NCBI GenBank assembly: GCA_010093605.1
Contig: MU004193.1
Coordinates: forward strand, 124,001 to 188,000
Length of the DNA stretch: 64,000 nt
Direction: 5' to 3'
Source of the DNA: Lophium mytilinum
Taxonomy: Eukaryota; Ascomycota; Dothideomycetes; Mytilinidiales; Mytilinidiaceae
Made by a program: the position numbers and the translations under genes. The notes beneath the pieces were generated by a model. The model was not told where the DNA came from. It worked only from the letters and a program-made list of their open reading frames with translations, and ran no database searches. This document shows positions 3,714 through 36,360 of the stretch, in pieces; positions within the stretch are counted from its first letter, which is position 1; every line of letters starts with the position of its first letter.

Positions 3714-4503
3714 TCACTTCTTCAAACTCTCCAACAACTCCTGACTCTCCTTCGACTCGGCCATCAAATCCCGCCCCGGCTTCCCAAACCTCCGCGCATG
3801 CTCCTCCACCTTCTCCCCGCTCTTAATAACCTCGTAATTATACCCAATCGTCATCTGCAGCGTCTCAACATCGATAAACGCCAGCTCATCCGGGCGGATC
3901 TTCTCCAGATACTCCGGGTCCTTGAACGCGTCCTCGAAGGTCGCGAAATCGCGAACGTAGGCGTCGGTGAAGCCGTCCCAGGGCTGCATGTCGCGGCCGG
4001 CGGCTTTGGCCATGGCGGCGCCGAGGGCTTTGGTTTCGTCGGTTGTGTGGGCCTGACGACGTTAGGAAACTGGAGGGGGGAAGTGGCACGCTGGGTATGA
4101 AAAACGTGGCACACTCATCAAGATCTGTGGTTTGCGGTCGTGTGTACAACTGTCTGCCACTGCTTGGAGCGCTTCGACAAGTTTCCAGATAGCCCAAAGC
4201 TGAGAGCTTCTACCGGTTTTACATTTCTGGAAGTGTATTGAAGACCTACAACTAGCGGCAGACATGTGTATAAGGCAGAATGAGCGTTGAGTGTGCCACC
4301 TTTTGCATGCCCCGCGTGAGTGGGTAGGGATGGGCGGGGAGAAGGGGAAGTACTTGAACGTATTCAACGACGCCGTGCCGCATCATGAAGTCTGTGCAGA
4401 GCGGGCCGTGGACTTGGGTCCAGTATTGGTAGAATTCTTCTTTTGAGACGCCGGGTTTGCGGCGGATGAAGGAGGAGATGCGGATGAGGTTTTCGGAGGC
4501 CAT
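3714..4503 (-). CDS. EthD-domain protein
   Basis: Small ferredoxin-like (dimeric alpha-beta barrel) EthD-family protein of about 162 residues. Fungal members include decarboxylases and cyclases acting on aromatic polyketides, but many are of unknown function. Two exons: 4354-4503 and 3714-4052. Exon 1 carries the typical EthD start, with IRISSFIRRKPGVS and the EFYQYWTQVHGPL motif. Exon 2 carries GFTDAYVRDFATFEDAF, then a PEYLEKIRPDE stretch and the FIDVETLQMTIGYNYEV strand. The intron is 301 nt, five times the usual length here. A 232-bp foldback element fills its middle (see 4087-4318), and without that element it would be 69 nt. The start at 4503 fits family length. No clustered biosynthetic partner is adjacent, so the substrate cannot be inferred. 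Confidence 0.85.
4087..4318. mobile_element. Foldback MITE-like element, copy 1 (intronic)
   Basis: A 232-bp element lies inside the EthD intron. Its ends are inverted repeats (CACGCTGGGTATGAAAA at the left, the complement of GCATGCCCCGCGTG at the right). Nearly the whole sequence folds back: the arm with CTGTCTGCCACTGCTTGG pairs imperfectly with the arm containing GCGGCAGACATG. The 5-mer AGTGG flanks it on both sides (4082-4086 and 4319-4323), consistent with a target duplication. It has no coding capacity. It is homologous along its length to the element at 26720-26965. Confidence 0.8.
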
Positions 4504-6180
4504 ATTTACTAATTGATATAGGCTAGTCTGATATTACGATCTACACGGGGTATCAAGATATTGAAAGAGTCGACCAGAAAAGTGGATGGCAGGGCGGGAT
4601 GTCGTCTCTTATATCAATAGTCTAATCCGGAAAAAGCTACCCGATTTCGGGGTTCTATTCTTCCTTACTGCAATGGAGTTGATATCCCCGCGAATGCAGT
4701 GCCAAGACACGGTCTTTGAAGACCGGATTGCCCTTCCTGCCTACGATTGGCTGCGTGTCTTGACGCGTTTCTTAATGTACCTGCTTTTGGCACGATGGCT
4801 CAGCTCACGTGAGCATCACGTGCTCTGCTTCTGCCGAACTATAAATACCTCGGGCCTTGCAGCGATGCTTCTTGGAAGGCTGCAGAAGTGTGAAGTGTTC
4901 TTACTGATCAAAATGCAGTCCAATATCTCCCAATGGAAGTGGAAAGAAATCTGCGGGTAGCATATCAGATCAAACACTGCAGATCAAACACTGCGATGGT
5001 TGGTGGTGGGAGATCGGGCCGTGCGGATCGATAAAGAGTGAGGGTTACGAGGGCGATTTCTGCATGATGAGAATGTCTCTGTCTTGGTAGGTACAATCAC
5101 TCAGTCAGTGTTGCTCAGCGTCTTTCCACGATCCTTCTGGAGGAAATTAATGGTATTCAATTTATATTATCAGCATCGTCGTATGCTGGTGGGTAGCAGC
5201 ATGCGCAATTAGTTCCCAAAGGCCCCATGTGTCGATGAAACGGGAGTGTTTTACTCAACCCTCCAGTCCCAAACCCCAATTCTCCATCAAGCCTTTGCCA
5301 TCAATTTTTCAACGACCGCACATGTGGTGGTGGTGGTGGTAATGTTGAAGTCCCAAATGCCAATCTGCCTGCCTATGAAAGTTCTAGAGTCTAGGCGAGC
5401 TTTTATATCCATAAAGATGAAGTCTCGGAGGTGGAGTTAATCCTTCCGAGTTCCCGTGACTTCACGTGACTCATCCAAAGTCGGATCGTAGCCACTGTGC
5501 CACTTACTTCAGTGATAGAAACAAAGGGAATAGCGGGTTTGCATTGCTGCCTGGAACCTTCTTAATGACGTATGAAAGTTGCTCGAATTTCCGACCTTGC
5601 ATCTGGTTCTCGGGATTCGGCTCTCTTTTCGTTTTCTCCGGCAGGACGACACCTGGTTACAAAGCAACCCTGGAGTAGCAAATCCCCGGTACAGTTACGA
5701 TCAACATCCTCTTAAACATCAGGCATACCCACCTGGGCAAACGCTCCTATATCATATGTCCCTGAGAAAATTGTGATGTCAGCAATAACCTCTTTGGGAC
5801 AAGCTGACCTAACCAAAGTCCATTTCCGTTTCCGCTTTCGATCCTGAGCGCTTTTAAAACCGAGCAGTGACTAAGTATTCTAGCCCAAGCTTGTGGCTAT
5901 GCAAGCCCGAGCAATCCTGGGCAAGCCAGCCTTACTAGTCGCCCGAATCTGGAATATGCCTAAAACCACCCCTTCATCAGCGAAACGTCCGCATCCACGT
6001 GACTTAGCTGGTGCGTTGTAGGCAGCAGCCACAAAGTGGGGTGTCAGCCGCATGATAATTCAACCGACTACATATAAAAAGAAAACAAACCGCCTCGCTA
6101 TTGAATACACATTTGCCTCCAACACTCTCAACTATTCCACCATTCTCTTTGGAAAGACACACCTGCCCCCCATACTCAAA
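4504..6180. other. Long intergenic region with CACGTG pair and short repeats
   Basis: This is the divergent upstream region of the EthD gene (minus) and the small gene at 6181 (plus). Two CACGTG boxes lie 5 bp apart at 4806-4811 and 4817-4822, the first inside a CTCACGTGAG palindrome. Further CACGTG sites occur near 5464 and 5997. A 14-bp unit is exactly duplicated at 4967-4980 and 4981-4994. A short GTG-repeat run occurs near 5322-5340. Open frames here lack features of real proteins. No RNA gene recognised. Confidence 0.5.
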
Positions 6181-6675
6181 ATGGTCGACCCTACACCTAA
6201 CGACTACGCCAACTCCGCCGAGTTCAAACGCATCGCCCACTGGTCCGAATTCGGCCAAAGAGGAGAACCCCCAACCGAACGCGTGACAAACTCAGAATGG
6301 AAGCAAACGCATCCCTTCGAGAAGCCTGTCACCTCCAAATGGAACCAACCGATCCCACGCGCCATGCTGCCTAAACTGCTCAACGGGTTTCAGCCGTCTG
6401 CGATGGAGGATAAGTGGTTCGTGTACGCCGACGGGCCAGATGCGGAGGGCAATGCTGTGTTGCACATGCATCGAAGTTGGACAGGCTTTAAGATAGTGGA
6501 GGCGAAGTTTGTTATTCAGTTGGACGAGGATGGGGGGTTGAAGGAGGAGGATGCCTGTTTTACGGAGATTGTGTGGGAGTCGGATAGTGAGCGGATTAGG
6601 GGGCATACGGATGAGAAGGCGAAGGAGACGGTGAAGGGGGTTTGTAATTGGTGTATGGGGGTTCAACTTCCGTGA
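6181..6675 (+). CDS. Conserved-looking protein of unknown function, 164 aa
   Basis: I do not recognise a named family. A single exon encodes a soluble protein of 164 residues. The start at 6181 has a good fungal context (CAAAATGG). A longer in-frame ATG exists upstream, but that segment reads as leader sequence. The core around residues 78-110 (DKWFVYADGPD, then HMHRSWTGFKIVEAKFVI) has the look of a compact beta-rich domain seen in small uncharacterised proteins of bacteria and fungi. Acidic stretches follow (DEDGGLKEEDACF). There is no signal peptide, membrane segment or obvious catalytic motif. Codons are mainly C-ending in the first half and G-ending in the last third, as in several other genes here. 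Confidence 0.65.
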   Translation: MVDPTPNDYANSAEFKRIAHWSEFGQRGEPPTERVTNSEWKQTHPFEKPVTSKWNQPIPRAMLPKLLNGFQPSAMEDKWFVYADGPDAEGNAVLHMHRSWTGFKIVEAKFVIQLDEDGGLKEEDACFTEIVWESDSERIRGHTDEKAKETVKGVCNWCMGVQLP

Positions 6676-7591
6676 GGGACGTGTGCTTGGCTGGAGAGAC
6701 TGTTGAGGGATATGCTTCTAGCGACCGAGACTTGTACCTCCCAAGTACGGGGAAATAAGGAAGGCTAGAATAGTTGGCTGTGGTGAAGAGAAAACCTCCG
6801 AGGATGGTGCACGCATGCACCGTTCCGAGGTTTTGTGACTGAGTAAAACCCTTTTCTGGTGATGCAAGCTTACGTTTCTTGTGTTTGTCGTCGCGAAGTT
6901 TGAAATCATTCTTGATAGATGCGTCTTTTCACGACGAAATGCTACCGAATGATATGGCAGGCATAGGTCTGCTTCGAGATAAGCCAAGATCTGCCATTGA
7001 GGGATGTATTTCTGCAATGTTGGATGAAAAAGCACGCCCCGTTTAAGATTAGGGGGACCGGAAAATAAGCGATATCATAATATGGAGCTCCAACATGCAA
7101 CGATACTACACACCCCAAAGACGATGAAAGTAGATATCTTCGCTCGCCGTGAACGTGCCTCTGCTGAAGTTCTTAGGGTGAAACTGTGGCGGTGCAGACG
7201 GACCTGCGCGCGAGCTGAACCTTCCAACGATACGGTGCTAATCGAATGGGGAGTTATTATACGCACTAGTGTCTTAGGCCCAAAGTTCCAGCTTATTCTG
7301 ACGACCAGGTTTATTAATAGGTCGGAGAACCTCAACTCCACCATTTCCTATCATCACCGCGAAAGGATTTCGGATCTGACTCGCAATTCTCATCCGTTGG
7401 ACACAGGAATTTGAAATCAAGGCTCAAATCGAAGGATCCCACCGGACCAATCTCAACGCATCAGGAATCGGAACGGAAATAAAAGGAACTCATTTCCCAC
7501 ATCTCAAGTTCATCTCTTTATACACACTTCATCAAAACCACAAACCCATCCTTCTCTCCGCCCCCAAACCCCCCAAAAGAACCCTTCCACA
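6676..7591. other. Intergenic, GAL80-like promoter side
   Basis: This holds the 3' flank of the 164-residue gene and the upstream region of the GAL80-like gene. Apart from the 44-bp inverted repeat at 6791-6834, I see nothing coding. A pyrimidine-rich leader (about 7540-7590) directly precedes the next ATG, as is common for fungal transcription starts. Confidence 0.5.
6791..6834. repeat. 44-bp imperfect inverted repeat (hairpin)
   Basis: AAAACCTC...TGGTGCA is mirrored by TGCACCG...GAGGTTTT around a four-base centre, with a small internal mismatch. It lies about 115 bp after the stop of the upstream gene. It may be a 3'-end structure, a small palindromic element remnant, or chance. Confidence 0.5.
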
Positions 7592-8740
7592 ATGCCCCCC
7601 ACCCGCATCGGCCTCGTCGGCCTCTCCCCCAACGCCATCTCCGCCTACGCCTCCACCGCCCACCTCCCCTACCTCACCCACTCCCCCCACTACACCATCA
7701 CCGCCCTGTGCAACTCCACGCTCCCCTCCGCCCGCACCGCCATCGCCGCCTACCACCTCCCCGCGAGCACCGCCGCCTACGACTCCGTTGCCGCCCTCGC
7801 CGCCGACCCAAACGTCGACCTCGTCGTCGTCTCCGTCAAAGTCGGCCTCCACGCCGCCCTCGCCGCCCCGGCTCTCCGCGCGTGGAAACCCGTCCTCTGC
7901 GAATGGCCCCTCGGCATCAACAGCACCGAAGCCGCGCAACTCGCCGCGCTGGCCGCTGAGAACGGGGTCAAGACGTATGTTGGCGCGCAGACCCGCTTCT
8001 CGCCCCCGGTCGCGGCGTTGCGCAAGCTGCTAGCCTCCGGCGCGATCGGGGAAGTGTTGTCGACAGATGTAACGGCGACGTTTGGCCCGCCGATCGAGAT
8101 CTGGATGAAGAGCGCGGACTTCTACCTCGATTTGAAGAGCGGGGGCAATCCGTTGGCAATCCGGTTCGCGCATTTTGTGGATGCGTTTTGCCATACGCTG
8201 GGGGAGTTTGAGGGGTATGATTCTGTGTTGAAGACGAATGGGAAGAGCGTGAAGGTGTATGATATCACGATGGGGGAGATGGCGACGGTCGCGAAGGAGC
8301 CGGAGAGTAAGCCGTATGAGACGATGACGAGGACGAGTCCAGATGAGATCCTGCTGCACGGCACGCTCGCCGGGGGCGCGGTGGCGGGGTTGCATTTCCG
8401 TACCGGCGAGAAAGAGATTGATGGTAGTTCGTTTAAGTGGACGATTACGGGGACGGGGGGGATTGTGCAGGTGAGGCAGAGTGAGACGATTAACTATATG
8501 CAGGATGGGAGTGTGCGGATTCAGATGCGGAAGACGGGGGGCGAGGTCGAGGAGGTGGAGGTGGAGTGGGAGGATGATGTCGCGGGGATTTATGGGGCGG
8601 TGTCGAATCAGGCGAATACGGGGAGGTTGTATAAGGCGATTGCGGAGGGGAGGGGGGAGGAGGTGATGAGCTTTGAGGGGGCGGTGGCGAGGCAGGGGTT
8701 GATTGATGGGATGATTGCGCAGGCGGAGGAGAAGGCTTGA
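7592..8740 (+). CDS. GAL80-like Gfo/Idh/MocA-family protein
   Basis: Intronless 382-residue member of the Gfo/Idh/MocA NAD(P)-dependent oxidoreductase superfamily, closest in layout to Gal80-type proteins. Residues 5-14 (IGLVGLSPNA) form the Rossmann dinucleotide loop. DLVVVSVKVGLH follows, and EWPLGINS replaces the catalytic EKP motif with EWP, as in Gal80 homologues. This hints at sensing rather than catalysis. The C-terminal alpha/beta domain runs from about residue 135 to 375. Yeast Gal80 is the galactose-pathway repressor, but filamentous fungi lack the classical Gal4 circuit, so a regulatory role is unproven. Codon third positions are almost all C up to about 7950 and largely G after about 8150. 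The two possible roles are enzyme and NAD(P)-responsive regulator. Confidence 0.85.
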   Translation: MPPTRIGLVGLSPNAISAYASTAHLPYLTHSPHYTITALCNSTLPSARTAIAAYHLPASTAAYDSVAALAADPNVDLVVVSVKVGLHAALAAPALRAWKPVLCEWPLGINSTEAAQLAALAAENGVKTYVGAQTRFSPPVAALRKLLASGAIGEVLSTDVTATFGPPIEIWMKSADFYLDLKSGGNPLAIRFAHFVDAFCHTLGEFEGYDSVLKTNGKSVKVYDITMGEMATVAKEPESKPYETMTRTSPDEILLHGTLAGGAVAGLHFRTGEKEIDGSSFKWTITGTGGIVQVRQSETINYMQDGSVRIQMRKTGGEVEEVEVEWEDDVAGIYGAVSNQANTGRLYKAIAEGRGEEVMSFEGAVARQGLIDGMIAQAEEKA

Positions 8741-9233
8741 AGGAAGGCTTGAAGGGGTGGGTTTGGGTTGGTAGTGCGCAATATCGCTACCTATTTGTAG
8801 CTTTTATATGATTTGGATAGACAACATATGGTCACTGCTCTCAAGCTCCTCAAATTCTCACATCTCATCTAGATCTATAGGAGTCCACTTAAATCAGCGG
8901 CAAGAATACAGAATGGCCATCAGTGTAAGTAAGAAGTGGTGGGCTTGGTTCTGGTCCTTCGTCATTATCACAGATGCTTCAATGCACCGTTAAAAACATA
9001 AATTGAACTGAATCTTGTTGGTTTGGATTGAATTTCATCAAATCCAACCATCTACAGAAGCCGCTGCGCGACCACAGACTGCACTACGTCCCGTATTAGA
9101 GAGGCCTTCAGCAACTACGACTCGAAGATGAAGTAGCACACGGAGATTCCTATTAGTTGATTGTGCACATCATCTCCTCCGACGATAGGGCCCCAATGGT
9201 AGGAGGTCGACGGTCCGAATTCCTTCCACTCTC
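8741..9233. other. Intergenic, converging 3' flanks
   Basis: This lies between the stops of the GAL80-like gene (plus) and the RING gene (minus). No motif, RNA gene or repeat was recognised. Confidence 0.5.
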
Positions 9234-11258
9234 TCACATGAACTCCCTGAGAACCCTCACCAGAAAGCCCGGTTCGTCTTGCTCCACAGGTGGCTCTGCA
9301 TCGTCTGGTCCTGGCGCAGCTTCGGGTGCGGGTGCTTGTGCAGGCTGCTGATCGATGACTAGCGCAACTAAATTTCGAAGTGCCACTACGAAAGGGGGGT
9401 CTAAGCTAATCCAGTCATAGAATTCCCCAATCCGCATGTGCGCTACGTCCTGTGCTTGTATTCCGGCGGCAACAGCAGCGGCCACAGCAGCATCACGAAA
9501 GGTGGCCATCGCTCGGTCAAGCGCATGCGGATCCCCAGCATGTAGCTCTGCGAACGGCGGCTCTAGAGCTGGTCCTAGGTTTTCCAATGGTAGGTGTGCA
9601 GCTGGCGCTTCGAGCTCAAGGCGATTCGCAACAGCTTCGACGACTTCTGCAATCTCTCGCGCATCTGGGGGAGGTATTGCTGGCGCGAGTGCCTGGAAAT
9701 ACCGACGAACAATCTCGGAGCCATCGTTGCGAAGGTTCGCACCGCGCACGCCGCGGTTGAGGCCGTCCATGAGAGTTCGTTCCACAACGTGCTCGAGGTC
9801 GTGGTCTTCATCGGCGGGCTGCGGAACTTGTTCGAAGGCTCTGGCAGGCTGGTTGGGTTGGAGTACTCTGAGGAATGCAGCTCTATGGATCACGGGCATC
9901 GGATGTTCTACTGCAGCGGGCAATACAGGTCCGAGGTCTGGCATGTTGTCGTCCGGGAAGTCGTCTACAAGCTCTGGGGGCTCTTGGGGGTCTTCTGGCT
10001 CGGCGGCTTGCGCAGGAGGATCATCAAGTTGGGCTGGAGGTTGCACAACAGCGGCGGGGTGGAGTTGTGGAATGATATCAGGTTCCTCGCCGGGGACTGG
10101 AATGATAATTCGCTGAGCAAAGTTGAGGGGCCCCCGTGGGGGTGGGCCAGGCGGATGAGCCTGTTCAGCTAGGTCTAGCCTCTCCCTGAAGACTCTAATC
10201 GCGCCCTCTGATTCCAGAATCCGCTGCCGTAAGTCTTCTCTCATGGCGTCGTCTTGCTCAATAGCCAGTTGATGCACCCACCCGGCTCGTTGTTGTTCCT
10301 CCCACTGGATTTCTCGCCGTAGAAACTCTATACCATTCTGGGCCGGATCGCCAGGCAGCAAAGCACCCATAATCTGGTGCAGAGCCGCCGCGGGGATGAA
10401 CGGCAGATGAGGCTGGTGGTCGTTAGGATGAGGAGGCAAAGCTGGCAGGGGAATCTCTTGTTGCCAGACTCCCATGAACTCGTCTTGATCTAGCATGGCG
10501 GCCTGATTAGGGTCATCCCGAAAGAACTTCGTCGAACAATATGGGCAGCAGTTTCGTGGACGGACACTGCCGGCCGGGATGTCGCAAAACCATCGCTTGA
10601 GGCACATATGGCCAGCCGCGTGCCCACACGGGAGCAGAATGGCAAGTTCGGGGGTCTCTCCTTCATTTTCGATGACGCCAAAGACGTTCTTGCAGATGAA
10701 GCAGTCTGTAGGGGGCTCGCCTAGAGTGTAGGTTGCCAAGTTGAGATAGTGTCTCGTGCCGACTGAGAGGTAGTCGCCGAAGAATGTGTCGCGGTCAGGC
10801 AGATCCGAGTCTTGGTCGTTGGCTGCGTCAAGTGGTGCAACAATTTGTGGCATCAGAACGGCCTCGGCGGCTCCCCCAGGTATGTTCGCCATATGTCCAG
10901 CGGCATCGAGATGTCCTGGTAGACCAGCGCGTCCCAGGTGGAAGACGATTGGCGGATTCAACCACCGGATACCTGGAAAGTCCTGCGGAACCTGCCATTG
11001 CCTGCCATCCGCCCCCTCGGCATCGAGCGCTTGCTGGGGCCTCGCGAGTGGAGGCTGTGGATCGAGTGGTGGACCAAGGGGTGGTAGTTCGTCCTCGTCC
11101 TCCGGACGCGCCTGAGGATCACCGTCTTCCACAGTCGGACGCCGTGGATCAAGTGGCGGACCAAGTGGTGGCGGTTCGTCTTCGTCTTCCTGCTGCGCGT
11201 GTGGATCTTCATCCTCCACAGTCGGACGCGGTGGCATGCGTGGTAGGTTGTCAGCCAT
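9234..11258 (-). CDS. RING-type zinc-finger protein with N-terminal tandem repeat
   Basis: Single-exon protein of 674 residues, probably an E3 ubiquitin ligase or other RING protein specific to this lineage. Residues about 11-66 are two near-identical copies of a 28-residue acidic/proline unit (RPTVEDEDPHAQ and RPTVEDGDPQAR, both ending LGPPLDP). The RING-like domain lies at about residues 185-245. It starts CFIC, continues to LLPCGHAAGHMCLKRWF and closes with CCPYC. This gives a C-x2-C, C-x-H, H-x2-C, C-x2-C pattern compatible with two zinc sites. The rest is proline/acid-rich and probably disordered, with a helical, charged stretch around residues 300-370. No transmembrane segment is visible. 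Fungal genomes often carry expanded families of such RING proteins of unknown substrate. The ATG at 11258 is the first in frame and is followed directly by the repeat. Confidence 0.75.
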   Translation of the reverse strand: MADNLPRMPPRPTVEDEDPHAQQEDEDEPPPLGPPLDPRRPTVEDGDPQARPEDEDELPPLGPPLDPQPPLARPQQALDAEGADGRQWQVPQDFPGIRWLNPPIVFHLGRAGLPGHLDAAGHMANIPGGAAEAVLMPQIVAPLDAANDQDSDLPDRDTFFGDYLSVGTRHYLNLATYTLGEPPTDCFICKNVFGVIENEGETPELAILLPCGHAAGHMCLKRWFCDIPAGSVRPRNCCPYCSTKFFRDDPNQAAMLDQDEFMGVWQQEIPLPALPPHPNDHQPHLPFIPAAALHQIMGALLPGDPAQNGIEFLRREIQWEEQQRAGWVHQLAIEQDDAMREDLRQRILESEGAIRVFRERLDLAEQAHPPGPPPRGPLNFAQRIIIPVPGEEPDIIPQLHPAAVVQPPAQLDDPPAQAAEPEDPQEPPELVDDFPDDNMPDLGPVLPAAVEHPMPVIHRAAFLRVLQPNQPARAFEQVPQPADEDHDLEHVVERTLMDGLNRGVRGANLRNDGSEIVRRYFQALAPAIPPPDAREIAEVVEAVANRLELEAPAAHLPLENLGPALEPPFAELHAGDPHALDRAMATFRDAAVAAAVAAGIQAQDVAHMRIGEFYDWISLDPPFVVALRNLVALVIDQQPAQAPAPEAAPGPDDAEPPVEQDEPGFLVRVLREFM

Positions 11259-12806
11259 TGCAACGAAGTTGCTGGTGTAGCACTAGTTACTGATAGCGAG
11301 AGTCGTGTGATGATGTGAGATGGCGGAGGAAAAAAGGACGGCGGTGGAAGGAGAGGTTGCGACCTTGAGGTTGAGTGCAAGTGCCAAGCCGAGCCGACGG
11401 TGGTGAATGCGCGGGATCACAATGTGTGCTGGGCAGGAGCAAGGCGGCACCCTGCAGCAGTTCAACACTGTCTGAGGTGGCCTAGGAAGCTGTCAGGTTT
11501 GCCAAAGCTGGTATTTCAGTAACAGCAATAGCCTACTGGAGGGCCTCGAGCGCTCCTAAACTAGGGTACGCAAGAATAGCGGGTGTACCTCACGGATTTT
11601 GGTGCGTCCCTCACTTTTGCCGATCGAAAGAGGATGCACGTTCGACGTTTCCAAGACTAGGGAAGTCGTGGAGCACCTTAGGCAGCAGTGAACGGGAATA
11701 TGCATATAAGAAGACTTAGATGTCGTCGTCTGATGACGCACCACGTCAGGTGAAATAACGCGAAGTTCTACCTACAATTGCACTCTCGAGGCAAACTTAC
11801 AAACAATGTTGCTCCAAGATTTCGTAGCAATCGGTTGATTTCTATATGCTGTATGCAACTGATTCCCCCCATCGGGATTTTTCTAAATGCTGTTCGTAAG
11901 TCTGGCCAATCAGCGCTCAGCTCCATAGAATGCCCGTGTTGACGATGAAAATGCCAGCGCGCAATCTCTGATTGGTCATGCTTTTCCTGAATGCTGCTGG
12001 CAAAGACTGGTGTCGGTTCATTGCGAGTGCCAGCGCGCAAGCTCTGTTGGTTGATGTGAACCAATTGCATCCACCCGAACGAGCCTATAGCCATCTCCTC
12101 CTTCCCGGGACTGACTGGAACTCCTCCGTTATGGGTAGGCAATATTGCACTAATCTACTCTTCTTTCAGCCTGCTCCGGGTTCAGCCACTTCTCTTCATC
12201 TATCTTAAAATTGATGATATTCTTATCCTTCTTTATAGCCTGTTAAATTAGCTTGTTTCTAAGAGGTTACCGACTACGGGGCTTAAGAGTTGTGACTATT
12301 AAAAGCTCTACTTTGGCAGCTTCAGCGACAATCTGCCAGGCGCTCCTTTACCCTCTCTGGGTACTTCTTCATGATCTAGATATACAGCAATACTCTCAGT
12401 ATCCTTCCGCGTGAGGTCTCTATTTCTGCCTCGAGTTTCAATAGTATTGTGCGTGGTTTAGTATTGTGTTAATGCGACAATCCGCTGCTAAGAGCGCTCG
12501 GCGATGATGGTTGCTTTTTGTATAGTAGCTGGAGGAATAGCCCTGCCTATTAATTGGCCAAAGACGTTGGCGTAGAGAACGCCGGTGCCAGCATCGTGGT
12601 GCTATTCAGGAGGTGGAGAGAAGTGTTTTGCCCGCAACTTTCGGGATACAGGCTTCTTGATAACTCGGGCCATCGTTGGCAGTTGGAAAGGGGTGAAGTT
12701 GGGTACGAATTGGTGGAGTTGTGAGTGTTGCTTTGATCCAGGGGCATTGTTTTGATGGGGTGCGCACGGTGCCTGATATCGACACCTTTTTCGGCGCCGA
12801 AGGCAC
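11259..12806. other. Intergenic with a 25-bp direct repeat and decayed AT-rich patch
   Basis: No convincing gene. The sequence TGCCAGCGCGCAA followed by a CTCTG/TTGGT motif occurs at about 11951 and again about 80 bp later near 12029. From about 12200 to 12500 base composition becomes AT-rich with stop-laden frames, suggesting decayed repetitive DNA. Minus-strand fragments at 12550-12823 (for example KKPVSRKLRAKHFSPPPE) read like remains of a protein but have no intact frame. Confidence 0.4.
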
Positions 12807-14336: not shown

Positions 14337-14630
14337 GGGTCTCGCGAGAAGGGTGCGGATGATCTCTTTTTCCCAACTACTACTAGTTCTACGGCTCTGT
14401 TCGTGCGTAAAACTAATCAGCTACAACCGCACTAGCCCAGCTTCCCGAAAGATCTTGCTCGAAGCTGAGGCGGAAGTCCATACAAGGAGGCTGGTCGTTC
14501 GTGTAGAGTCTCGTGGTTCATCGTGGGAGCCATCTTTCTACTGCTGGAGTAGATGAGCGTCCAGAAGGACAGAGGGTCGTGATAAATGCTGGCAAGAGCG
14601 CCAGCCTCCGACCAAGGTGGTGGTGTAAGG
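14337..14630. other. Short spacer between F-box-like gene and transposon
   Basis: This is the upstream flank of the minus-strand F-box-like gene. Part may be an unmodelled first exon. Normal base composition ends at the transposon border at 14631. Confidence 0.4.
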
Positions 14631-14632
14631 TA

Positions 14633-14678
14633 GAAGTGGCCACGGGCTCGTGCACGCTACCACCTCGTGCACGGTTCT
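14633..14678 (+). repeat. Left terminal inverted repeat of the transposon
   Basis: Begins GAAGTGGCCACGGGCTCG and continues to CACGGTTCT. It matches the reverse complement of 16743-16788 at 44 of 46 positions by eye. Confidence 0.85.
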
Positions 14679-16742
14679 CTTACCCCTCACCGCCCTTTCT
14701 CTTAAGCTTTAAACCTCTATAACTTTATTAATTTTAATCTAAATAGCTTTAAAAGAGGCTGTAATATAAGCTGCATTTATAGAGCTTAATTTATACCCGG
14801 AAAGAAAGTTTATAGATATTGCGGCGCATTATAGAATCTACTATAGTACTCTCTCTAAACGCTATAGAGAGAAGACTAGAAGTAAGGCTAAGGAATATAA
14901 TTCTTAAAAGCTACTAACTTCTAGCTTAACTATAGCTCTTATTATATATATTAATAACCTCTTAGAAAAGGGGCCTACCTTTTATATATTAAATACTTTA
15001 AAATCTAGCCTAGAAAGTAGCTAGAAAAATACTAGGAATTAACTAGACTTTATATTTTATTAATTAGAATTCTAAGTAGCTTAAATTAAAATACCTTCTT
15101 TCTATTAATAAATTATAAAAAAGGGCTAATTCTACCCTCTACTATAGCCTCTACTTTAAGCTATTAGGCCGGAAGATAAAGTAATATAATATTAAGCTAG
15201 AATATAGCTATAATATAGATAAAAAGGGATTTCTTATTAGGTAGATAAAAAAAGCTTAAAGAATCTTTAGTAAGCTAGTATTACTTAAAGAATCTTTAGT
15301 AAGCTAGTATTTAAGTTAGAAAGAATATAGAATATTATATAGAATAGAAATAGAGAGTAGATTACTATAGTAGTAGCTATTTATACTAATAAAATAGTAC
15401 TTTCTCTAATACTAATTTATTAAGCTATAATAAATAATATTTAAGATATATAGCTTTAAGATTTTAAGCCTAATAAATAGTACTATTTCTTTACCTCTAT
15501 ACTAAGCGGCTAGACTAATAATAAGCTAGGCCTTATTTAGTTAAAGCTCTTTAATTACTAGATAAAAGAGAAGGCTAGAAGAAATTAAAGGCTATTAATA
15601 ATTAATAGCTATAGTTTATATATTAATATAAAGTTTATTAACTTTTATAATAAGAATAAAATTCTTCTAGTAATATACCCCCTCTATTTAACTTACTAGC
15701 TTTAGCCTTTAGATATCTCTTTCTTCTTCTCTCTTACTATTTACTATAGTAATAAATTAGCTTAATTTATAATAAATTATAAAGGTTTCTTATACTTTAT
15801 AAAGTATAACTTCTTTAGAACCTTTTAGGTAGTATAGAAGAAGACTATAATACTAAAGAATATTACTAGTAGATAAAAGAGAACTAGTATATATCTATAG
15901 AAGCTAGCTATAGTATTAGATTAATTTTAAGTAAAAAAAAATAAAGATAAAGATAGGCTATTATCTAGTAACTTAACTTAGTTAGCCCTTTTAGTAGGTA
16001 ATTAGAAGTTAATTAAAATATACCTAAAATAGGTAGTAAACGCTATATTTAAATTCTTAGCTAGAAGAAAAGTAAGAGCTCTTACTAAAGATATTTACTA
16101 GCTTATAGCTACTAATATTCTTCTTTAAAGCTATATTAGGGGCTATTAAGAAGCCTTTAAAATAAAATAAAGAAAGAGAATATAGTAGAAGAACCTCTTT
16201 TAAATCTTAGTATCTAATAATAGAGGAAGAGCTATAGTCTATTTACCTAATAAGATATAGTAGGCATATAAGCTTTACTAAGAAAAGAAGGACTCTAAGG
16301 CTTATAATATAGCTACTAAGATAGAGAATAAGAGTATAGCTTAATTAAAGCGCTCTACTAAAATTACTAGGTAAAAGATTACTAAGAATACTAAGAATTT
16401 TAATATATACTAGATATAGAAAGATAAGAATTAATATAGAGCGGCTAAGTAGCTTAAAGATAATAATAAAGTAATAAAGAAAAAGAAGAAGATAAAGTAG
16501 ATTATATTTACTATTTCTAAGAAGCCTATAGTTAAGGAGAATATTAAGGTAGAAGAGGGGGTATTAAAATTATTATCTAGCCGGCCTTAAAGAATTTAAT
16601 ACCCGCCTAAAAGATATAAGAACTCTATAATTATTATAGAATAAAAGAGTAACCTTAAAAGGTTCTTCTTTTTAATTCCTAATTAGTTCCTGTAAAAATT
16701 TAGTAAATGTATAATATTTTAAAGTTTATAATGCGTGCTCGA

Positions 16743-16788
16743 AGAACCGTGCACAAGCTGGTAGCGTGCACGAGCCCGTGGCCACTTC
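16743..16788 (-). repeat. Right terminal inverted repeat of the transposon
   Basis: Reverse complement of the left repeat, ending CGAGCCCGTGGCCACTTC, followed by TA. There are two differences, one of them a C/T transition. Confidence 0.85.
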
Positions 16789-16790
16789 TA

Positions 16791-18619: not shown

Positions 18620-21600
18620 ATGACTACAATGGCTGGCTTAGACGATCCATTCGTCGATGATCAAAGCCATGTAGCACACCTTCCCTTGGAAAAGCACACG
18701 GACAAGGGATCCCGAGCCGAAGGTTTCGAACCGCGTGAAAATGGAAGAGCTTTGCCAAATAACGACCATGAAAGCCGCCTCAACGCTTCCCACTGCCTCC
18801 GCGAAAAACTCTCGAAAATCCTAGAGGCTCATCCAATTGGGTTAAATCCAGAAGGTGTCTACCTCCCAGAGGATGAAATTGACAAACTTTTCAACGAAGA
18901 CGCGATCCAGAGTGTGCATGACGGCGGGCTGGACTCCCGACTGGCCGAATATATGGCGGACCATGCGAAGAGGACATTTGCAACATTGTTGCAGGTCTTT
19001 CCCGACTGTAAAGCTCGTCAGCAAGCTATGGAAGCTCTCAAAGCAAACAACTTCACCGATAACGAGTTGCCGTCTCTTGAACTTACGTTGTGTTATTGTT
19101 ATTGCCGCCCACGCCGTGATCGCACTTGCAAACACTATTTTCCAAGCGACAAACCTTGGGATACTGACTACTTGAAGGACTTCAAACTCAAACGATGGCG
19201 TTTCCTTGTGCCCAAGTTTGAAACCAACATTTTTCTTTACGAGTTCGACAAAAATCGACTGCTACCTTTCACAGAAAAGGTGCCCGGTGGAGAGATATCT
19301 AGCGGCCATTTTAGCGACGTCGCGATTGTAGAGATGTTGGCTAGCAAGCAAGACAAAGACAACATTTCAGAAAAGACAATCAAGGTGGTGTTGAAAACCC
19401 TCAAAAGAATCGGCGACCCCGGATACATTATCGAGACAGAATGGCGGCGCGAGGCAAAAGCGCACAAGCAAATGAACGGAAGCAGCGACAACATCATCCA
19501 AGCATATGCCGCAATCCGACAAATTGCATCACAACCGCAGAACGATGCATTCCATCTTGTGCTGGAGTGGGCCGATGGCGGAAACCTTCATGATTTTTGG
19601 TCCGAAAATCCCCTTGCTCAACTCGATCACCTGCATGTCGAGGAAAGCCGCCAACGCGTCAAGGAAGTACTGGAACAGCTTTGGGGATTATCACAAGCTC
19701 TGGAGCGAATGCATACTACCAGCGTTCAACGAACGCCTGGGAATAGCAGACGCGGCTCGGCAACATCTTCTCCAGTACGCTCGCCGGAGAGAGATGAACG
19801 TAGGAGAGGAGACAGTCTTGACGCTAGCGTAGCGTATTCAGATCATTTTTCCCTGCCTACATTCAACCTAGAAGCCACAGATGACGTAAGGCCGGATGAA
19901 GCAGTGCTTAAAGTTTCGGTTTCTGCTCCCGACTCGGCAAGCCCGGAGGTAGCTAGTTCTTCAACATTGACGCGAAGACGGACCGGTTTCACTGCAGAGA
20001 ATTGGCGTCACGGCGATATCAAACCAGAAAATATATTGCGTTTCAAAAATGGCAATTATCTAGGTGTTTTGAAGATCGCCGATTTAGGAAGAGCGCAGCA
20101 GCATTTGTTTGTGACGAAGATGAGGGAGACTAAGGAGAAGGAGTTGTGGACCACAAAATGGTATGAACCACCAGATCTCGAGGAGAAAAATCACAAGCAG
20201 GCTCAAGAGAAAATTTCACGCTTGTTCGACATCTGGTCTATGGGTTGCGTTATCTTCGAAGCTGCACTGTGGATGCTGTATGGCTATGAATCTTTCGGCG
20301 CTTTCGTGCGGGCGAACAAACTGTCTGCAGGAGAGCTAGGTGCGACACCATACTGGAAAAAAGGACAGCGAGGCGACTACGAACTAAGCGGTGCGGCCAC
20401 CAAGTGGATGAACTATATTTTGGAGCACGATCCTGAACGCAATGGCGCTATCGGTCACCTCGTCAAGTTAGTGAGAGACAGACTGCTCCAGATCCGCCTG
20501 CCTCTAGACTCGGATACCTACACGCCGGGGTTCCGTACAAATGCAAAAGACCTGAGGGAGCAGCTTCGTATGATCATCGTAGAGACCGAGAAAAGCGAAG
20601 AGTACTGTTTCAGCGGTGCTGATCGAACAAATGTGTCTCATCCGGACCCAGATGAGCTAAGCACAAACACATCGGCACAATCTGCAGGTCGTTCATCTTT
20701 GTCGCCTAACGATGCAGGGAAGAGGAGCGCGCCCGTGAGCCAAGGGCGAGGAACCGCAATAGCCATGCAGCGCGATTACTCTAACCGCATGGAAGATAAA
20801 TGGAAGACCCCCGCCGATAATGACTTCGTGGAGGCAAACTTAGCCAGCCGGCATTTCGTCGCTAGCGAGCCTGGTTTGTGTGAAATGTGCAAAAAAATCA
20901 ACATTTTGTCACCGCGTATCTCTTTTGATACGAGTGAGTTGGAGAAAAACTCAGATAATGAAGATTGTGATCTATGCGAGTTGGTCTGGAGCGCATCCAA
21001 GGATCTAGACCTCACGAGCCATAGCCGCATTTTATTGATACGATTAGCAAGCGATTTTGTCTTCGAAGGCACCAAAACAAAGAAAGTCTTACGGCTATGC
21101 CGTATGACAAGCGGTAAGCATGGAGAGTGCATCATGATGCTCAATCTAACAAGAACGATAGGGACTGTGCAGGACGCAACAATCCCGATAAGTGCACCAA
21201 GTATAGGATCTCCAAGAACTACTTTTGACATCGAATTGCCAAAAGCATGGCTAAAAGAGTGTGACCTCAAGCACGGCGGTACTTGCGCTCCTAGGCAAAG
21301 TAATCAGGTGCTACCTAGAAGGCTCATCAATGTCGAAAACCGGAAGAAGCCAAAGATCATAGATACAGCAGAGCTAGCATTAGTTCCAGAGAAGACCGAA
21401 TATGTTGCACTCTCCCACAAGTGGGGCCACATGCCTGAGAAGGCCGTAACAACGACAAAGAACATTGTTCAACGCAAGGAAAAGATCCTAATAAAAGAGC
21501 TCCCAGCTAGCTTTCTAGATGCGATTGAATTCACGTATGCCCTCAATTGCACCTATCTTTGGATCGATTCTCTCTGCATCTTACAAGGCCCGGATGGCGA

Positions 21601-22743
21601 TTTCAGTGAGCAAGCAGACACGATGCAAACGACCTTCAGCAATGCGTACTGCGTTTTAGCCGCTTGCAGTGCTGAGAGTGCCACGGATGGCTTTCTGAAA
21701 GATCGCGAGCCACGATGCGTCAAATTTGGCGATGTCTTCGTTTCTGCAGTCACTGATGATTTTGAGCGGGACGTCCTCCACAGTCCTCTCAACAGCCGCG
21801 GGTGGGTCTTACAGGAGCGAGCACTCGCGCGTCGAACCATCTTCTTCACAAAAACCCAAATGTATTGGGAATGCAGTGACGGCATCCGCTGCGAAACCCT
21901 GACAAAACTCAAGAAGTAAGAGACGAAATCTTTTAACAATGCGAGCATAACTAACACCCATTGCGTAGCGATAAAGCTGCGTTCCTCGGTGATTCAAACT
22001 TCCCCGATTACACGATTGGACCGCAGAGTTCCGTAGGGGAGCAGATCGCTCTTATCATCGACTTGTTCCAGCGATACACTAGACTAGAGTTTTCGCATCC
22101 GGAAGACCGACCTATCGCCATCGATGGACTCATGGACAGGCTCAATGTCGCATTCAAGACGAAAAGTCTCGCAGGGCTTTTCGAGACATTCTGGGGTCGC
22201 TGTCTACTCTGGCGGAAGGCTGACGGCGCAGTACCGATGAAGAAGATTCTGGGTGGAACACACACTCGTAAAATTCCCCCGACCTGGTCGTGGATGGCCT
22301 TTGAGGGCGAAATCTCTTTCATCGAGCCTGGAGGCGGGAAAATCGATTGGAACCGCGCTGATATCATCCTGCCTGATATCATCCTGCCATCCACCACTCG
22401 CGCCCCAGTTTCGTGGCTCAGAACGAGTCATCGAGGTGATGTTGTGGCGATCCGGGCCAAGGCGTTTAAGTTTGAAGACGCCGGAGACACTGTAGATGCT
22501 ACCGATCGCCAGGAGTTCTACGATGGCGGCAAGGAACTTCCGAGAGCCTTGACGAAATGTGTGGTCATCGGCAGCGAGAAGCCGCATGTCAGCAACACTG
22601 ACAGGAGAATGCACTATGTAATGATTGTTAGGGCGATCTCAAATGCTCCTAACGCGGCGTCTTACGAGCGTGTTGGTGTTGGATATATGTTGGGGAAGTT
22701 CATTGGCCTAAGTCGTTCCCCTCTTGATGTGACGATTGAGTAG
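18620..22743 (+). CDS. Protein kinase-HET domain fusion protein
   Basis: Two exons (18620-21915 and 21969-22743) joined by a 53-nt intron with GTAAGA donor and CTAAC branch site give about 1,356 residues. The N-terminal part is a protein kinase: VVLKTLKR lysine near residue 256, EWRREAKAH for helix C, LVLEWADGGNL hinge, HGDIKPENIL catalytic loop near 463 and an ADLG metal motif near 487. The catalytic residues are kept. A low-complexity insert of about 100 residues precedes the catalytic loop. After a linker and a Cys-rich patch (LCEMCKK and DCDLCELVW, about 750-800), a HET domain follows, with YVALSHKWG near 927, YLWIDSLCIL near 978 and GWVLQERALARRTIFF near 1060. HET domains trigger cell death in fungal heterokaryon incompatibility. 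Fusion to a kinase suggests signal-coupled control, but this is inference. The gene stands alone, with an RIP-affected transposon upstream. Confidence 0.88.
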
Positions 22744-23243
22744 TTTTAGGGTGATGGCGGTATGTAGTTCAATGGCACCTGTCAGAGTTTCCCCGCCTAT
22801 CTGCTATCTGCATGCGCTAGAATACTCAGGTCATTCTACAACTACCACTCTCCACAGTTTCGAAGAGCGGCGCGCAATACCCAAGCGTCATCCTACACGC
22901 CGATGCTCGGTGTCGCTATGGCTGAAGACTAGCAAGATGTGCACAGCTTAGTACTCAGACGCGCCGAACGTGCAACACCAGAGCTAGGAAGAGCTGCTGG
23001 CAATATTGAGGTACGAGATCCAAAGATGAGTTCTAATGTAAGAACCAAAAATATATTCTTATGTTACAGAATGGTCGGCATGTTTGCCCGAATACTTAAG
23101 ATGTGTTTCCAACCACGCGACTCTATAATGTTTCTAACTCAAGATATCGATCTGCAAGGAAATTCGTAAAAGTCCGCGCTTGAACGTACGGGATGTCTAA
23201 ATTAGAGCAACAGAAGATATTAGGATAACACTCGCAACGATCA
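22744..23243. other. Intergenic, converging 3' flanks
   Basis: This lies between the stops of the kinase-HET gene (plus) and the MFS gene (minus). Nothing recognised. Confidence 0.5.
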
Positions 23244-25023
23244 TCAATCTTCGTCCGTGTACGGCACCGATGCTGCACCACCCTGATCTCCGCGACCAAC
23301 ATCCGGCACGGCGGAAAGATCACGCAACGAGATGCAATACGTGATAGCCAAGACGGGTACAAACAAGACCGCCGAAAGCAGGAATGGCATCCCCAACCAC
23401 GCATTCCCGAGCTTCATTCCCCATCTAAAGAACTGCGCGATGAGTGGACCGGAGATCAGCATGCCGCAATTCTCTAGGATAGCGACGACGGCGAAGAGGC
23501 GGCCGATGTCTTTGCTCGCCTGGCCGCCGACCATGAAGACGGCGATGGAGCGCATGGCCATGCTGAAGCCGGTGCCGAAGGTGTAGAAGATTAATCCTGG
23601 GGAGGTTAGAGAGGATAAGATAATGGTGGGGGAGAGACTTGCCCCAAATAAGGATGGCGGGAGTGAAGGAGAAGCCCATGATTAGGAAGGAGAGGACTGT
23701 GAATGCAACGCTGCCACGCGATATCCAGAGGTCGCCTCGCTGGGGCGCTAGCTTCATCCATTTGAGGAGCAGCATGCTGATTCCGGGAAGGATGACGATT
23801 AAGGTCAGTAGGTTGAATCCCGCACGGAGCGAGTTTAGCAACGAAGCCTGTTCAGATATTAGATGGCGAGGAGCGGATGATGGAAGGAGTTCGACGAACC
23901 TGTCGTATAGTCCACCCATACCGCTTTGAAGCATATCGAATGACAAGATCTTGGGATTGTCGTGCTAAGCGGTTGACGAGGAAGGTGAAGACGACTAACG
24001 TAAGACTTAGATCCCTCTTTAAAAAGTGCAAGGCTTCTCTAAGGCGATGGATCTGGTCCTTAAAACCATGACCATGGCCTTTACCCGAGGACATGGAAGC
24101 TCTCTCGGTCAGATCATCCGCTTCATCCTCCAGTCTGTCATCGCGACGCTCTGGTTGGTCCCGGCTGTGTAAAGTCTCTGGAAGAAAGCAGGCGAGAACG
24201 GTCGCAAGTGCTGATACGGCGGCGCCTATACAGAAAGGCAGCCAATTCCCATACTGCATGAGTGCGAAACCTATAGCTGGAGCAATTACTTCAGCTAGCA
24301 GTAGTGTGGCTGCAACGTAGAAGAAGATTGTGGTCCTGCAAGCATCAGATTTGAAGTCATGTGCAGATGGAGTTCGCATACCGTCTTTCCGGGGGAACCA
24401 CATCGGTTAACATGGTGAAGACGGTTGCAACGGCTACTTGAGATCCTCCACCAATCATCATGAAGATAGATGAGAACCATGTGAGCTTCAATGGAAGCTC
24501 TAGGTAGCCTAGTGACGGATGAGCTCCTGAACCAAGTGACGTGAGCGCGGTACTCACAAATGAGCATTATCCACAACACGGACAGCTCCAATCCCAGAAA
24601 CCCCAGAACAAGTATCCATTTCCTGCCATATTTATCCGCCAATGCACCATACGGGACCGCAAGAAGTATGCCAGGTATTGCGTCGAACAGATCCTGCCAC
24701 CCAAAAACCATGGCCACGGTGTCCTGCACCTCGTTTATCTTGCACAATTGCTCCGGCACAGTTCCATTCCTAATTTGACTCGGGTCGGTATCTTGGTAGA
24801 ATCGAAGACAGATAGAGGACTCATAGAGGCGGGTTCGAGCGGGATAAAACATGAAGTTTCCGAGGTCCACGATGAAGATGGCGAGGGCGCCAATTACGGC
24901 GACCAGTATCCATGGCTTCCGGTGCTTTTGAGCAGAGGTAGAGGTTGAGGTGGGTGTACGCGGGAGAAGTGGGGTGGTGGAGGAGTCGCCGTCGAAGCTG
25001 TCTTGGTCGCGCGGTGAAGCCAT
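23244..25023 (-). CDS. MFS transporter, substrate unknown
   Basis: Major facilitator superfamily permease of the plasma or an internal membrane. About five exons on the minus strand: 24558-25023, 24382 to about 24530, about 23990-24336, then two more ending at 23244. The start MASPRDQDSFDGD is followed by a Thr/Ser-rich N-tail. TM1 is at WILVAVIGALAIFIVDLG, the loop 2-3 motif is GALADKYGRKWILVLG (canonical MFS A-motif), and further spans include GSQVAVATVFTML and TTIFFYVAATLLLAEVIAPA. A central charged loop (PERRDDRLEDEADDLTER) separates the two halves. The second half has GFNLLTLIVILPGISML, VAFTVLSFLIMGFSF, GRLFAVVAILENCGMLISG and LSAVLFVPVLAITYC. Twelve spans are likely. Exon borders are by eye; the second intron acceptor choice avoids an in-frame stop. 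Substrate cannot be told from sequence. Confidence 0.8.
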
Positions 25024-25658
25024 GGTGGACAGGATGGATTGCGCTGGAGGGGTCCCACGACGATATCTATTCACAAAAGAAAGAGGCGTCGTGGCAGACG
25101 ACGTGGACTCGGTGACATGCTGGCAACGTTCTGCTGCACGTAGTCGCACGCCCTATGTTTTGGGGGCTGGGGCCGTGAAGGAGTTCGGCATAGCCCTGCG
25201 GAGTTCCAGCATTCAAGCCGAGACCCCTGCCAAGCATCCCAGCGGCCCAACGTCATGCCTGGTGTTGAGCTCTATCTCAACCTTCATCATTTCATCAACT
25301 TTCTCTTCAAAATGTCGCATTACACTGCAGTAACAGTATCACTCTAGAGAGCTCTTTGTCTAGAGCAACTGTATGCTCCGTTCATCATCTTCTACTTTCT
25401 CGCTCTCACCACCTCCCTATCGCGGCTAGGCTTCCCGAATTTTATCCTCCAATCTCCACAACACTTCTTTAATCCTCTCGCGTCAGCATGTCTTGGTACC
25501 GCTTTTGGCCTATCATATTTCTCGTGTACTTGAAGCTTACGAATCTCTTGATTCCGTTGCATATTGAAAGTGTTCAAGTTAGTTGTCCACATCCAATCCC
25601 ATCAGGCAGCAGCGAAACGCCCTGTCTACACACGCAAGCTCGATACGCGGTCAACTGC
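25024..25658. other. Intergenic between two minus-strand transporters
   Basis: Promoter region of the MFS gene and 3' flank of the UNC93-like gene. No motif or RNA gene recognised; open frames here look accidental. Confidence 0.45.
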
Positions 25659-27466
25659 TCATGCCTCCAAGACGGGCCCAGTGACAACCTGAGAACCTTT
25701 CTCGAGCCTATGGCTATCCAACCCCTCGCTTTGGCTACCGGACTCGTCAACGACGTCCGAACTATAGCTGGTCTCCCGCACTTGTGTGAATGCAACCCAA
25801 GCTAGAGACGGAATGGAAGCGAAGAAAAGTCCGGTATTAATCGCACACGCCGCATCATAATTAATATCCAAAGCCGATACAACGAACCCAAACGTCGACC
25901 CTACGCAGCCGACTGTGTTGATGACGGCCGCCAAAAACGATGTCTCATTCAGATCATTAGTCAGAGTACCCGAGAGCCAGTATTGATACGTCGTGATTCT
26001 GTGCGATATAAGCAACATGTCATCATTGGAACGCATCGAAATAAACGGCGTGCAACTTACAGAGGATCCGAAGCGCCCCACAGAGTGAACAGAAACGCAC
26101 CGAGACCGTACCCATCATTAGCCCAATCCAGCGTCGGCATGGTCTTGGTGTAATGCGCCTGGAGAGCCTGCCCGAGAATCCACGATGTCCCCGACGTGAC
26201 CAATATGATGCCAAATCCCACCCTCGCGCGTGTCTTGCGCGAAAACCGTCTCCAATCGAGGATCTGGCCCATCAGCAAGGCAGACAGTAGACCAACGAGA
26301 TAGAAGACAGTCGAGTTGAGAGCGCGCGCTCGCACAGTGAAGTAAGCGAAATTAAATTGCCACTGATATGACAAAAACCACTGCGAGTAAAGGTAGAGTG
26401 GGAAGAGCGATAGCAGAGCCGGACGCTTGAGTATCTTCTTTAACACGCTGAACTCCTTACGGATCGACGGTTGCTTCTTCAAGACGACTTTGCGGCCGTC
26501 GGTGCGCTGGACACGCGAGGCCGAGGGGAGAAGAAGCGCAAAGGGGAAGCCAATGGTCATTATGGTCATCAGGACGATGTAGGTTGCATTGTTGACAGAG
26601 CCGCGCCAGGACTTTTCGAGATTGAGGGCTAGGCTTATGATGCCGCCAATCGAGGCTCCGAGGGCTTGCAGGCCAAATTTGACGGACACTGATCAGAATT
26701 AGCATGTTGAATTGAGCGGCCCGCTGGGCATGAAAAGATTGGCACAGTAAGCAAGCACTCTGTTGTGTACGGTTGTGCGTACACCTGTCTGCTACTGCTT
26801 AGAGTGCTTCAACAATTTTCCATGTAGCCAAGCTCGAAGGCCCATCTGTTTTACATTTCGGGAAATGCATTGAAGCACCACAAGCAGTGGCAGACAGGTG
26901 TACACACACGGGACCGCACGAGACAGAACACTTGCTGAGTGTGCCACCTTTTCGTGCCCAGCGTGATAGTGTTAATGGAGCTCTTACTTGCTACTCCTTT
27001 CCGGTTTTCTTCAGAGTATCCTAGCAGGATGGCGCCGCTCGAAACCCACAGAAATGCGGCTGAGATACCAAGCAGCGCTGCTCCGAAAAGAAGCAGCCAA
27101 TTGGTCCCGAAGCGATCATTGCAGTACAGCCCGGCTGCATAGGGTGTATATCCAAGAGTTCCAATCTAAATTTCTCCAGTCAACTTCTCAACTTTCCCAA
27201 AGCTACGTGAATAAACTTACTAGCAGGGCATACCTCGGCGTGATGCGGTTAGCCACCGCTCCTACGATTGGACTGGCGACGGCGAGTACTCCAAACACGA
27301 TTGCGTTGGCAGCATTCGAGATGTCCGGGCTTGCGCCTCCTCCTGCTCCCATGCCATTGAGGGCGCCGAAGATCCCGGGACAGGTGAAGGCGGTGGCTGC
27401 AACGCAGAAAGTCGCGAATATGGTGGATTTGTGCCACTGCACTGGGAACTTTTCGTTAACAACCAT
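25659..27466 (-). CDS. UNC93-like (DUF895) MFS membrane protein
   Basis: UNC93-like member of the MFS, a fungal family of unknown transport role. Four exons: 27221-27466, 26988-27165, an exon from 26688 to about 26065, and a last exon to 25659. Exon 1 gives KSTIFATFCVAATAFTCPG and a GGASPDISNAANAIVFG segment. Exon 2 carries LGYTPYAAGLYCNDRFG and LLLFGAALLGISAAF, typical of the family. Exon 3 has GASIGGIISLALNLEKS, SQWFLSYQWQFNFAYF and LLMGQILDWRRFSRKTRA. The last exon has TSFLAAVINTVGCVGSTFGF and a hydrophilic tail. Exon 2 joins exon 3 as GVAMSVKFG. Intron 2 is 299 nt and contains a foldback element (26720-26965); without it the intron would be 53 nt. Ten to twelve spans are likely. Confidence 0.8.
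26720..26965. mobile_element. Foldback MITE-like element, copy 2 (intronic)
   Basis: A 246-bp element inside intron 2 of the UNC93-like gene, in the same orientation relative to transcription as copy 1. The terminal repeats (CCGCTGGGCATGAAAAG left, CTTTTCGTGCCCAGCG right) continue into long imperfect arms. GTACACCTGTCTGCTACTGC on one side pairs with GCAGTGGCAGACAGGTGTAC on the other. Almost the entire element can form one hairpin. No target duplication is obvious. Confidence 0.85.
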
Positions 27467-32766: not shown

Positions 32767-33140
32767 GATATATTATTGGAGCATTGAAGCTCGCGATGAT
32801 GAAGACGGGAGTCGACAAAGAGTCGAGAATAGTTGCAGAATGGTTATGTCATCGAGGTCACCACTTTATGCGCGCTACCAGGCCTACCCATGTCCACGAC
32901 GCCCTTGAAGGCAGCATAACTTCTATCCCGCCCTCTATGAAACTTATACAGAAAGTGGTTGGGTGTACTCAAAGGGCGGTGTAGGATAGTATTAGCGAAC
33001 TATCTCAAAAAACGTTGGAAAAGAAGCCTTCGCGAAAGAGACTGTTTCGCCCGTCCTAGCGTTCTTCGGCCTTTTATGACCAGCGGCAAGGACTTTTCAA
33101 ATGCAACTCTATAGCACTCCCAATTCGGTATGACTAACTT
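32767..33140. other. Upstream region of the Zn2Cys6 gene
   Basis: Divergent promoter region between the regulator (minus) and an FAD monooxygenase (plus). No clear CGG-type inverted or direct repeats for a zinc-cluster factor were found by eye. Confidence 0.4.
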
Positions 33141-33240
33141 TGGAATATCTGGAAACTTGTTGGAGCACTCCAAGCAGTAGCAGATAGGTGTACACGCAAC
33201 CGCAAAAACATCTCTTGATGATGTGCCTACGTGGCTTTTG
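33141..33240. mobile_element. Half copy of the foldback element (copy 3)
   Basis: About 100 bp match one arm and inner part of the elements at 4087-4318 and 26720-26965, in inverse orientation on the plus strand. Segments such as TCTGGAAACTTGTTGGAGC and CTCCAAGCAGTAGCAGATAG align to copy 1 read on the minus strand. The other arm and both clear ends are missing. It is intergenic, not intronic. Confidence 0.65.
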
Positions 33241-36017: not shown

Positions 36018-36360
36018 GCAATCGGCAATGTCGCCTCTTGCAAAACCGGGATCAAGTGGCAATGATGCCGCTTGTCAGTTGGGAAAGCAACCGGCTGTCG
36101 CCTTATGCAAACTGGGAAAGCAACCGGCTGTCGCCTTACGGCTGTCGCCTTATGCAAATTGGGAAAGCAATAGGCTGTCGCCTTATGCAAATTGGGGAAG
36201 CAACCGGCTGTCGCCTTACGGCTGTCGCCTTATGCAAATTGGGAAAGCAATAGGCTGTCGCCTTTTACAACTTGAGAAAACAATGGACTATCGCCACTTG
36301 CAACAACAGGAAAACAATTGAAAAGCAATCGGCAAAATCGCCTCTTACAAAAGCAGAAAA
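36018..36360. repeat. 33-bp minisatellite with 80-bp higher-order period
   Basis: The decamer GGCTGTCGCC occurs at 36093, 36126, 36140, 36173, 36206, 36220 and 36253. The spacings are 33, 14, 33, 33, 14 and 33. The basic unit reads about GGGAAAGCAACCGGCTGTCG then CCTTATGCAAATT. A 14-bp partial unit recurs every 80 bp, so an 80-bp block has been duplicated. Both edges (36018-36090 and 36286-36360) carry older, diverged units. Confidence 0.85.

Follow-up and report, generated by a model that had tools for sequence, protein, structure and literature searches.

Copies of a MITE family, tentatively Transib-like, inside two most likely older introns of the fungus Lophium mytilinum

Introduction

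MITEs are elements of 80–500 bp (PMC2874221); in general they are short, non-coding and present in many copies, and they carry terminal inverted repeats (TIRs) and a target-site duplication (TSD). The CMCT clade of DNA transposons is described as comprising EnSpm, Mirage, Chapaev, Transib, Plavaka and others (PMC12730594, PMC9435367), most of its members having CA..TG termini and TSDs of 2–5 bp (PMC12730594). Plavaka elements are reported to end in TGT..ACA or CATCA..TGATG and to leave TSDs of 2–3 bp, while the name hAT5 is given to a hAT with a 5-bp TSD (PMC12730594). A RAG-like transposon with a 5-bp TSD, as well as Transib-like proteins in 20 fungi, have also been reported (PMC9435367). A different kind of repeated intronic sequence is represented by the introner-like elements (ILEs) of Dothideomycetes, which are described as being themselves spliceosomal introns (PMC4457414).

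Here, we examine an element family of Lophium mytilinum, starting from two copies in a stretch of 64,000 nucleotides of contig MU004193.1 (hereafter, the window). The family shares the general features of MITEs listed above and was matched to none described. Like the ILEs, it is a repeated sequence found in introns of unrelated fungal genes; unlike them, it appears to have entered introns that were older than the insertion, and most of its copies lie outside predicted genes.

Results

Two unrelated genes of the window, one encoding an EthD-domain protein and the other an UNC93-like protein, each harbor a copy of the element within an intron (Table 1). An earlier note on this DNA had placed both introns and both elements at these coordinates, with the correct element sizes and the perfect 5-bp duplication at copy 1. 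The inverted-repeat ends that it described are present, although the true termini lie two bases outside those it named. Of the leftover intron lengths it gave, 53 nt is right for UNC93-like intron 2 once the element alone is removed, but the EthD intron measures 64 nt without the element and one TSD, rather than 69.

Table 1 Coordinates of the introns and elements within the window.
Feature	Position	Strand	Description
EthD-domain gene intron	4053..4353	-	301 nt, GTACTT...CAG
TSD, left of copy 1	4082..4086	not assigned	AGTGG
MITE copy 1	4087..4318	+	232 bp, CACGC...GCGTG
TSD, right of copy 1	4319..4323	not assigned	AGTGG
UNC93-like gene intron 2	26689..26987	-	299 nt, GTAAGA...CAG
MITE copy 2	26720..26965	+	246 bp, CCCGC...GCGTG, without clean TSD
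MITE fragment, incomplete	33138..33232	-	95 bp

Since neither intron length is a multiple of three, retention of either intron would shift the frame, and once the introns are spliced out, both reading frames are intact. The spliced EthD protein matches PF07110 (E 6e-21, residues 16–111) and the spliced UNC93-like protein matches UNC-93, PF05978 (E 2e-15, residues 53–249), with the junctions, at residues 50 and 141, respectively, falling inside the matches. In both genes, the element is surrounded by 53–64 nt of intron that supply their own donor and acceptor. For copy 1, the gene finder also returned a plus-strand intron with a slightly higher score (74 vs 69), which we discounted in view of the EthD match. 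The two copies are homologous beyond chance, as the earlier note had proposed (E about 5e-33; 76.7% over 189 alignment columns or 72% over 250), and the flanks of copy 2, AGCGG and ATAGT, agree at two of five bases. The window also contains a third copy, the fragment in Table 1, which the earlier note had missed. Elsewhere in the window, an imperfect tandem array (36079–36318), with copies 33 and 14 bases apart, is rich in GGCTGTCGCC.

We searched the genome (43.18 Mb, 24 contigs) with the 246-bp copy, as the earlier note had suggested, and recovered many further copies: at least 79 matched pieces with copy 2 as query (40 of 119 candidates scored) and at least 61 with copy 1 (40 of 122 scored), a single copy often being represented by several pieces. 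The terminal motif, allowing up to three mismatches, matched at 182 forward and 185 reverse places, compared with 15 and 18 for its reversed control. If two ends are kept per copy, we estimate about 167 copies for all subfamilies together. A further subfamily, about 400 bp long, has the same ends (L020:5115-5513, L022:5906-6304, L048:895-1313, and other places); its 399-bp representative has about 28 bp of end in common with the short type and yielded at least 47 matches as a query (40 of 126 candidates scored). At L020 and L048, the copies appear to combine both types in a mosaic.

To characterize the ends, we used 32 bounded copies of 215–246 bp, leaving out L032, L037–L043, and L047, which lack two clear ends, and L044, which has a TSD of 3/5 (the bounded pair L004/L044). 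The left end CACGC was found in 27/32 copies and the right end GCGTG also in 27/32, both together in 23/32, and CAC..GTG termini in 27/32. A 5-bp TSD was perfect in 24 of the 32 copies and agreed in at least four of five bases in 30; when right flanks were shuffled (2000 trials), the corresponding means were 0.86 (maximum 5) and 2.6 (maximum 8). The 32 bounded copies therefore display the two features of MITEs, TIRs and a TSD of fixed length, and the family is short, present in many copies and, judged by length, non-coding. Divergence of the copies from their consensus ranges from 5.6 to 19.8%, and the family is therefore old. RIP of the MITE was rejected, as its C to T changes are without CpA bias (52/697 CpA, 27/416 CpC, 29/443 CpT, and 10/222 CpG on one strand; 44/666, 26/314, 37/499, and 10/222 on the other).

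At one of the excluded loci (L047, C4:1162150-1164150), one MITE lies in two parts of opposite orientation, at about 935-1112 and 1795-1837, with the same pentamer GCAGG seen by eye at each end. The roughly 0.7 kb between the parts holds the start of a gene that we take, from a motif, to be PLAC8-like, its second half likely being on the opposite strand. A small inversion that had one of its breakpoints in the MITE and cut the gene would account for this arrangement, as would an error of assembly.

We then asked where the copies sit, a count likewise suggested by the earlier note, using a gene finder written for this analysis and applied after removal of the element, together with one TSD where it agreed in at least 4/5 bases. 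The 34 emptied sites of bounded copies (which, relative to the 32 above, lack L014 and include L048 and two 399-bp copies) fell in predicted introns in 10 cases, in predicted exons in two, and in neither in 22. The control, which covered the window and L009-L028 (218,644 bases), was 4.7% intron, 51.6% exon, and 43.7% neither. Exon avoidance was clear (p 1e-8), and selection has probably purged insertions that hit coding exons; both exon calls are weak, L025 being without a Pfam match and L034 being the other. In seven of the ten intron calls, a Pfam match spans the junction (the two window genes, L016, L017, L019, L028, and L036), the call at L028 depending on a predicted 4-nt exon. The remaining three are L009, an ABC transporter gene whose junction at residue 41 is crossed by no listed Pfam match, and L020 and L029, without any Pfam match; at L020 the insert lies 15 nt from the acceptor.

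This distribution bears on the possibility that the MITE truly prefers introns, or that intronic copies were kept because the foldback aids splicing or regulation. Against all control bases, the intron share is raised for all calls (10/34, p 3e-6), for the Pfam-backed set (7/34, p 0.0009), and for that set minus the two window copies (5/32, p 0.017). Against non-coding bases, of which 9.8% are intronic, 10 of 32 non-exonic copies (p 0.0007), 8/30 without the window copies (p 0.007), and 7/32 in the Pfam-backed set (p 0.03) speak for such a preference, but the Pfam-backed set without the window copies does not (5/30, p 0.17), and all these copies were chosen by similarity rather than at random. 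Mixed orientation also argues against it. The earlier note had inferred a common orientation relative to transcription from the two window copies; this does not hold over the ten intronic copies, four of which run against the gene and six with it, ruling out an orientation rule. Among the Pfam-backed seven, the two window copies run against the gene and the other five with it, and the shared orientation in the window is a coincidence.

Folding gives this possibility no further help. Taken by itself, the consensus sequence folds at -118 and -126, but intronic copies fold no better than others (p 0.19) and the RNAalifold consensus is weak (-5.64 kcal/mol, 24 pairs, three changed on both sides, that is, little covariation); on these two grounds we rejected selection on the hairpin as RNA. 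The calculated path from donor to branch point across the folded insert exceeds that of the empty intron by 0–7 in 8/10 cases, and by 22 and 36 in L036 and L020, respectively (for copy 2 and L020, using a branch point upstream of the insertion). Compared with shuffled inserts, it falls below their mean in 6/10 cases and above it in 4/10; since shuffled inserts do about equally well, we give this result little weight. Folding up of the near-palindrome may still make the insert tolerable, although the calculated folds do not point specifically to this. Overall, we regard an intron preference, or retention for a splicing or regulatory benefit, as unlikely. At L009, the element entered the intron four bases from its start, where duplication of the target preserves the donor GTAAGC. 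It is similarly doubtful that the family is an ascomycete Transib-like MITE that is nearly splice-neutral and commoner in short introns than in other non-coding DNA, and we would give no better chance to the view that such a donor-sparing 5-bp TSD and the near-palindromic body put the family between MITEs and introners.

We next considered whether the insertions themselves made the introns, as introners or introner-like elements do. The repeated sequence does lie inside introns of unrelated genes, and some algal introners are described as resembling MITEs, with TSD and TIR; the ascomycete introner families, in the same account, are without TIRs or TSDs (PMC9860276). The in-genome paralogs allowed a direct comparison. 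Besides the window gene, there are three EthD loci (contigs C5, C24, and C4), and in all three, exon 1 can stop exactly at the end of the window exon, in phase 0, with GT next and later an AG followed by an open frame; the introns read as element-free. On C5 (113 nt, with an unusual donor, GTCCGC, and an acceptor that was one choice of several) and on C24 (55 nt; the match itself is weak, E 0.078), read-through runs into a stop, which requires the removal of some sequence. The 72-nt candidate on C4 (GTAAGA...GCTAAC...CAG) keeps the frame without a stop and is called from its splice signals. The C4 and C5 paralogs both continue with IH past the junction.

For the UNC93-like gene, the C18 paralog carries an intron of 54 nt without the element (GTAAGT...TACTAAC...TAG) with an in-frame stop, at the same residue and in the same phase 1 as intron 2 of the window gene, and the residues past the junction align without gaps. 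Four further paralogs (C15, C14, and two on C3) match without a break across residue 141, judging by the listed ranges, such that one of five clean paralogs has an intron at this site; a sixth, on C10, has stops, and another match on C10 stops short of the site.

Judged from these alignments, it is far simpler to suppose that both window introns predate the inserted element, the alternative being parallel gain. Most likely, then, the element lengthened the two introns and did not create them. An introner should show similarity that reaches both splice sites, and its intron should be absent from element-free homologs. In the two window genes, the similarity stops short of this, the element being enclosed by intron sequence that has a donor and an acceptor of its own. 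Among element-free homologs, all three EthD loci read as having the intron, as does one of the five clean UNC93-like paralogs, the other four being without it. The outer splice sites of the remaining eight intronic copies give no independent test, as the element was removed before gene finding. That 22/34 copies lie outside predicted exons and introns also counts against introners. Barring parallel intron gain, we thus rejected an introner origin of the two window copies, the alternative raised by the earlier note, and consider it very improbable. Chance similarity, or an isolated foldback without a mobile family, has a negligible probability: it is refuted by the many copies with common ends and TSDs, and we found nothing in its favor.

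Discussion

The TIRs and 5-bp TSD, the mostly extragenic placement, and the element-free introns of the paralogs lead us to conclude that a MITE, presumably mobilized in trans by a transposase, very probably inserted into two already existing short introns, the reading that the earlier note had preferred. In the mechanism we propose, a transposase acting in trans would recognize the CACGCTGGGCATGAAAA ends and make a 5-bp staggered cut, in a cut-and-paste reaction, and two copies would have entered short introns already present. The insertion of copy 1 falls between donor and branch point, as does that of copy 2 if the CTAAT seen by eye near the acceptor is the branch point. Splice sites and frames were left untouched, and the insert is presumably removed with the intron.

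The family consists of old non-autonomous DNA transposons, tentatively Transib-like. Its CAC..GTG ends and 5-bp TSD point to the CMCT clade, with Transib first. We take this combination, present here with such termini in 27/32 copies, to be a mark of Transib, which itself makes 5-bp TSDs; the Transib end, CACWATG, agrees with the CACGCTG of the family only at CAC--TG. hAT5 has the TSD length in common with the family, but hAT ends (YARNG) do not fit CACGC. A RAG1 family search of the genome was blank, as were its controls, and no autonomous partner or other transposase source was found in the genome by this search. Twelve genome matches are Plavaka transposase relics with internal TAG and TAA stops (e.g., C12:227549-228485). 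None was seen by eye within 50 kb of about 100 listed TIR places (of 367), and we rejected Plavaka as a partner, its reported ends and 2–3 bp TSDs being unlike those of the family.

RIP acts above a length threshold, and short elements escape it. Mutation of the long elements by RIP, with the short ones spared, may explain the unseen transposase source. Within the window, a 2.16-kb stretch (14631-16790) has 48-bp inverted repeats (96%) at its ends and 23–27% GC inside; no ORF of 70 aa lies wholly within it, and one of 125 aa overlaps its right end. This is probably a decayed, RIP-mutated DNA transposon. Its low GC and the stop-bearing Plavaka relics contrast with the MITE and its lack of CpA bias.

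In the open-licence papers searched, mostly by means other than sequence, we found no description of the family; the terminal sequence as a text query returned nothing relevant, and papers on MITEs within fungal introns offered no match. The element is ordinary in kind, and the family is not described in the literature searched.

Our findings draw attention to a family of fungal MITEs that leaves 5-bp TSDs and for which no transposase source was found. More generally, the controls within this genome indicate that a fungus can carry repeated elements in its introns without these being introners. A simple test is to look for paralog introns at the same residue and phase, together with TSDs.
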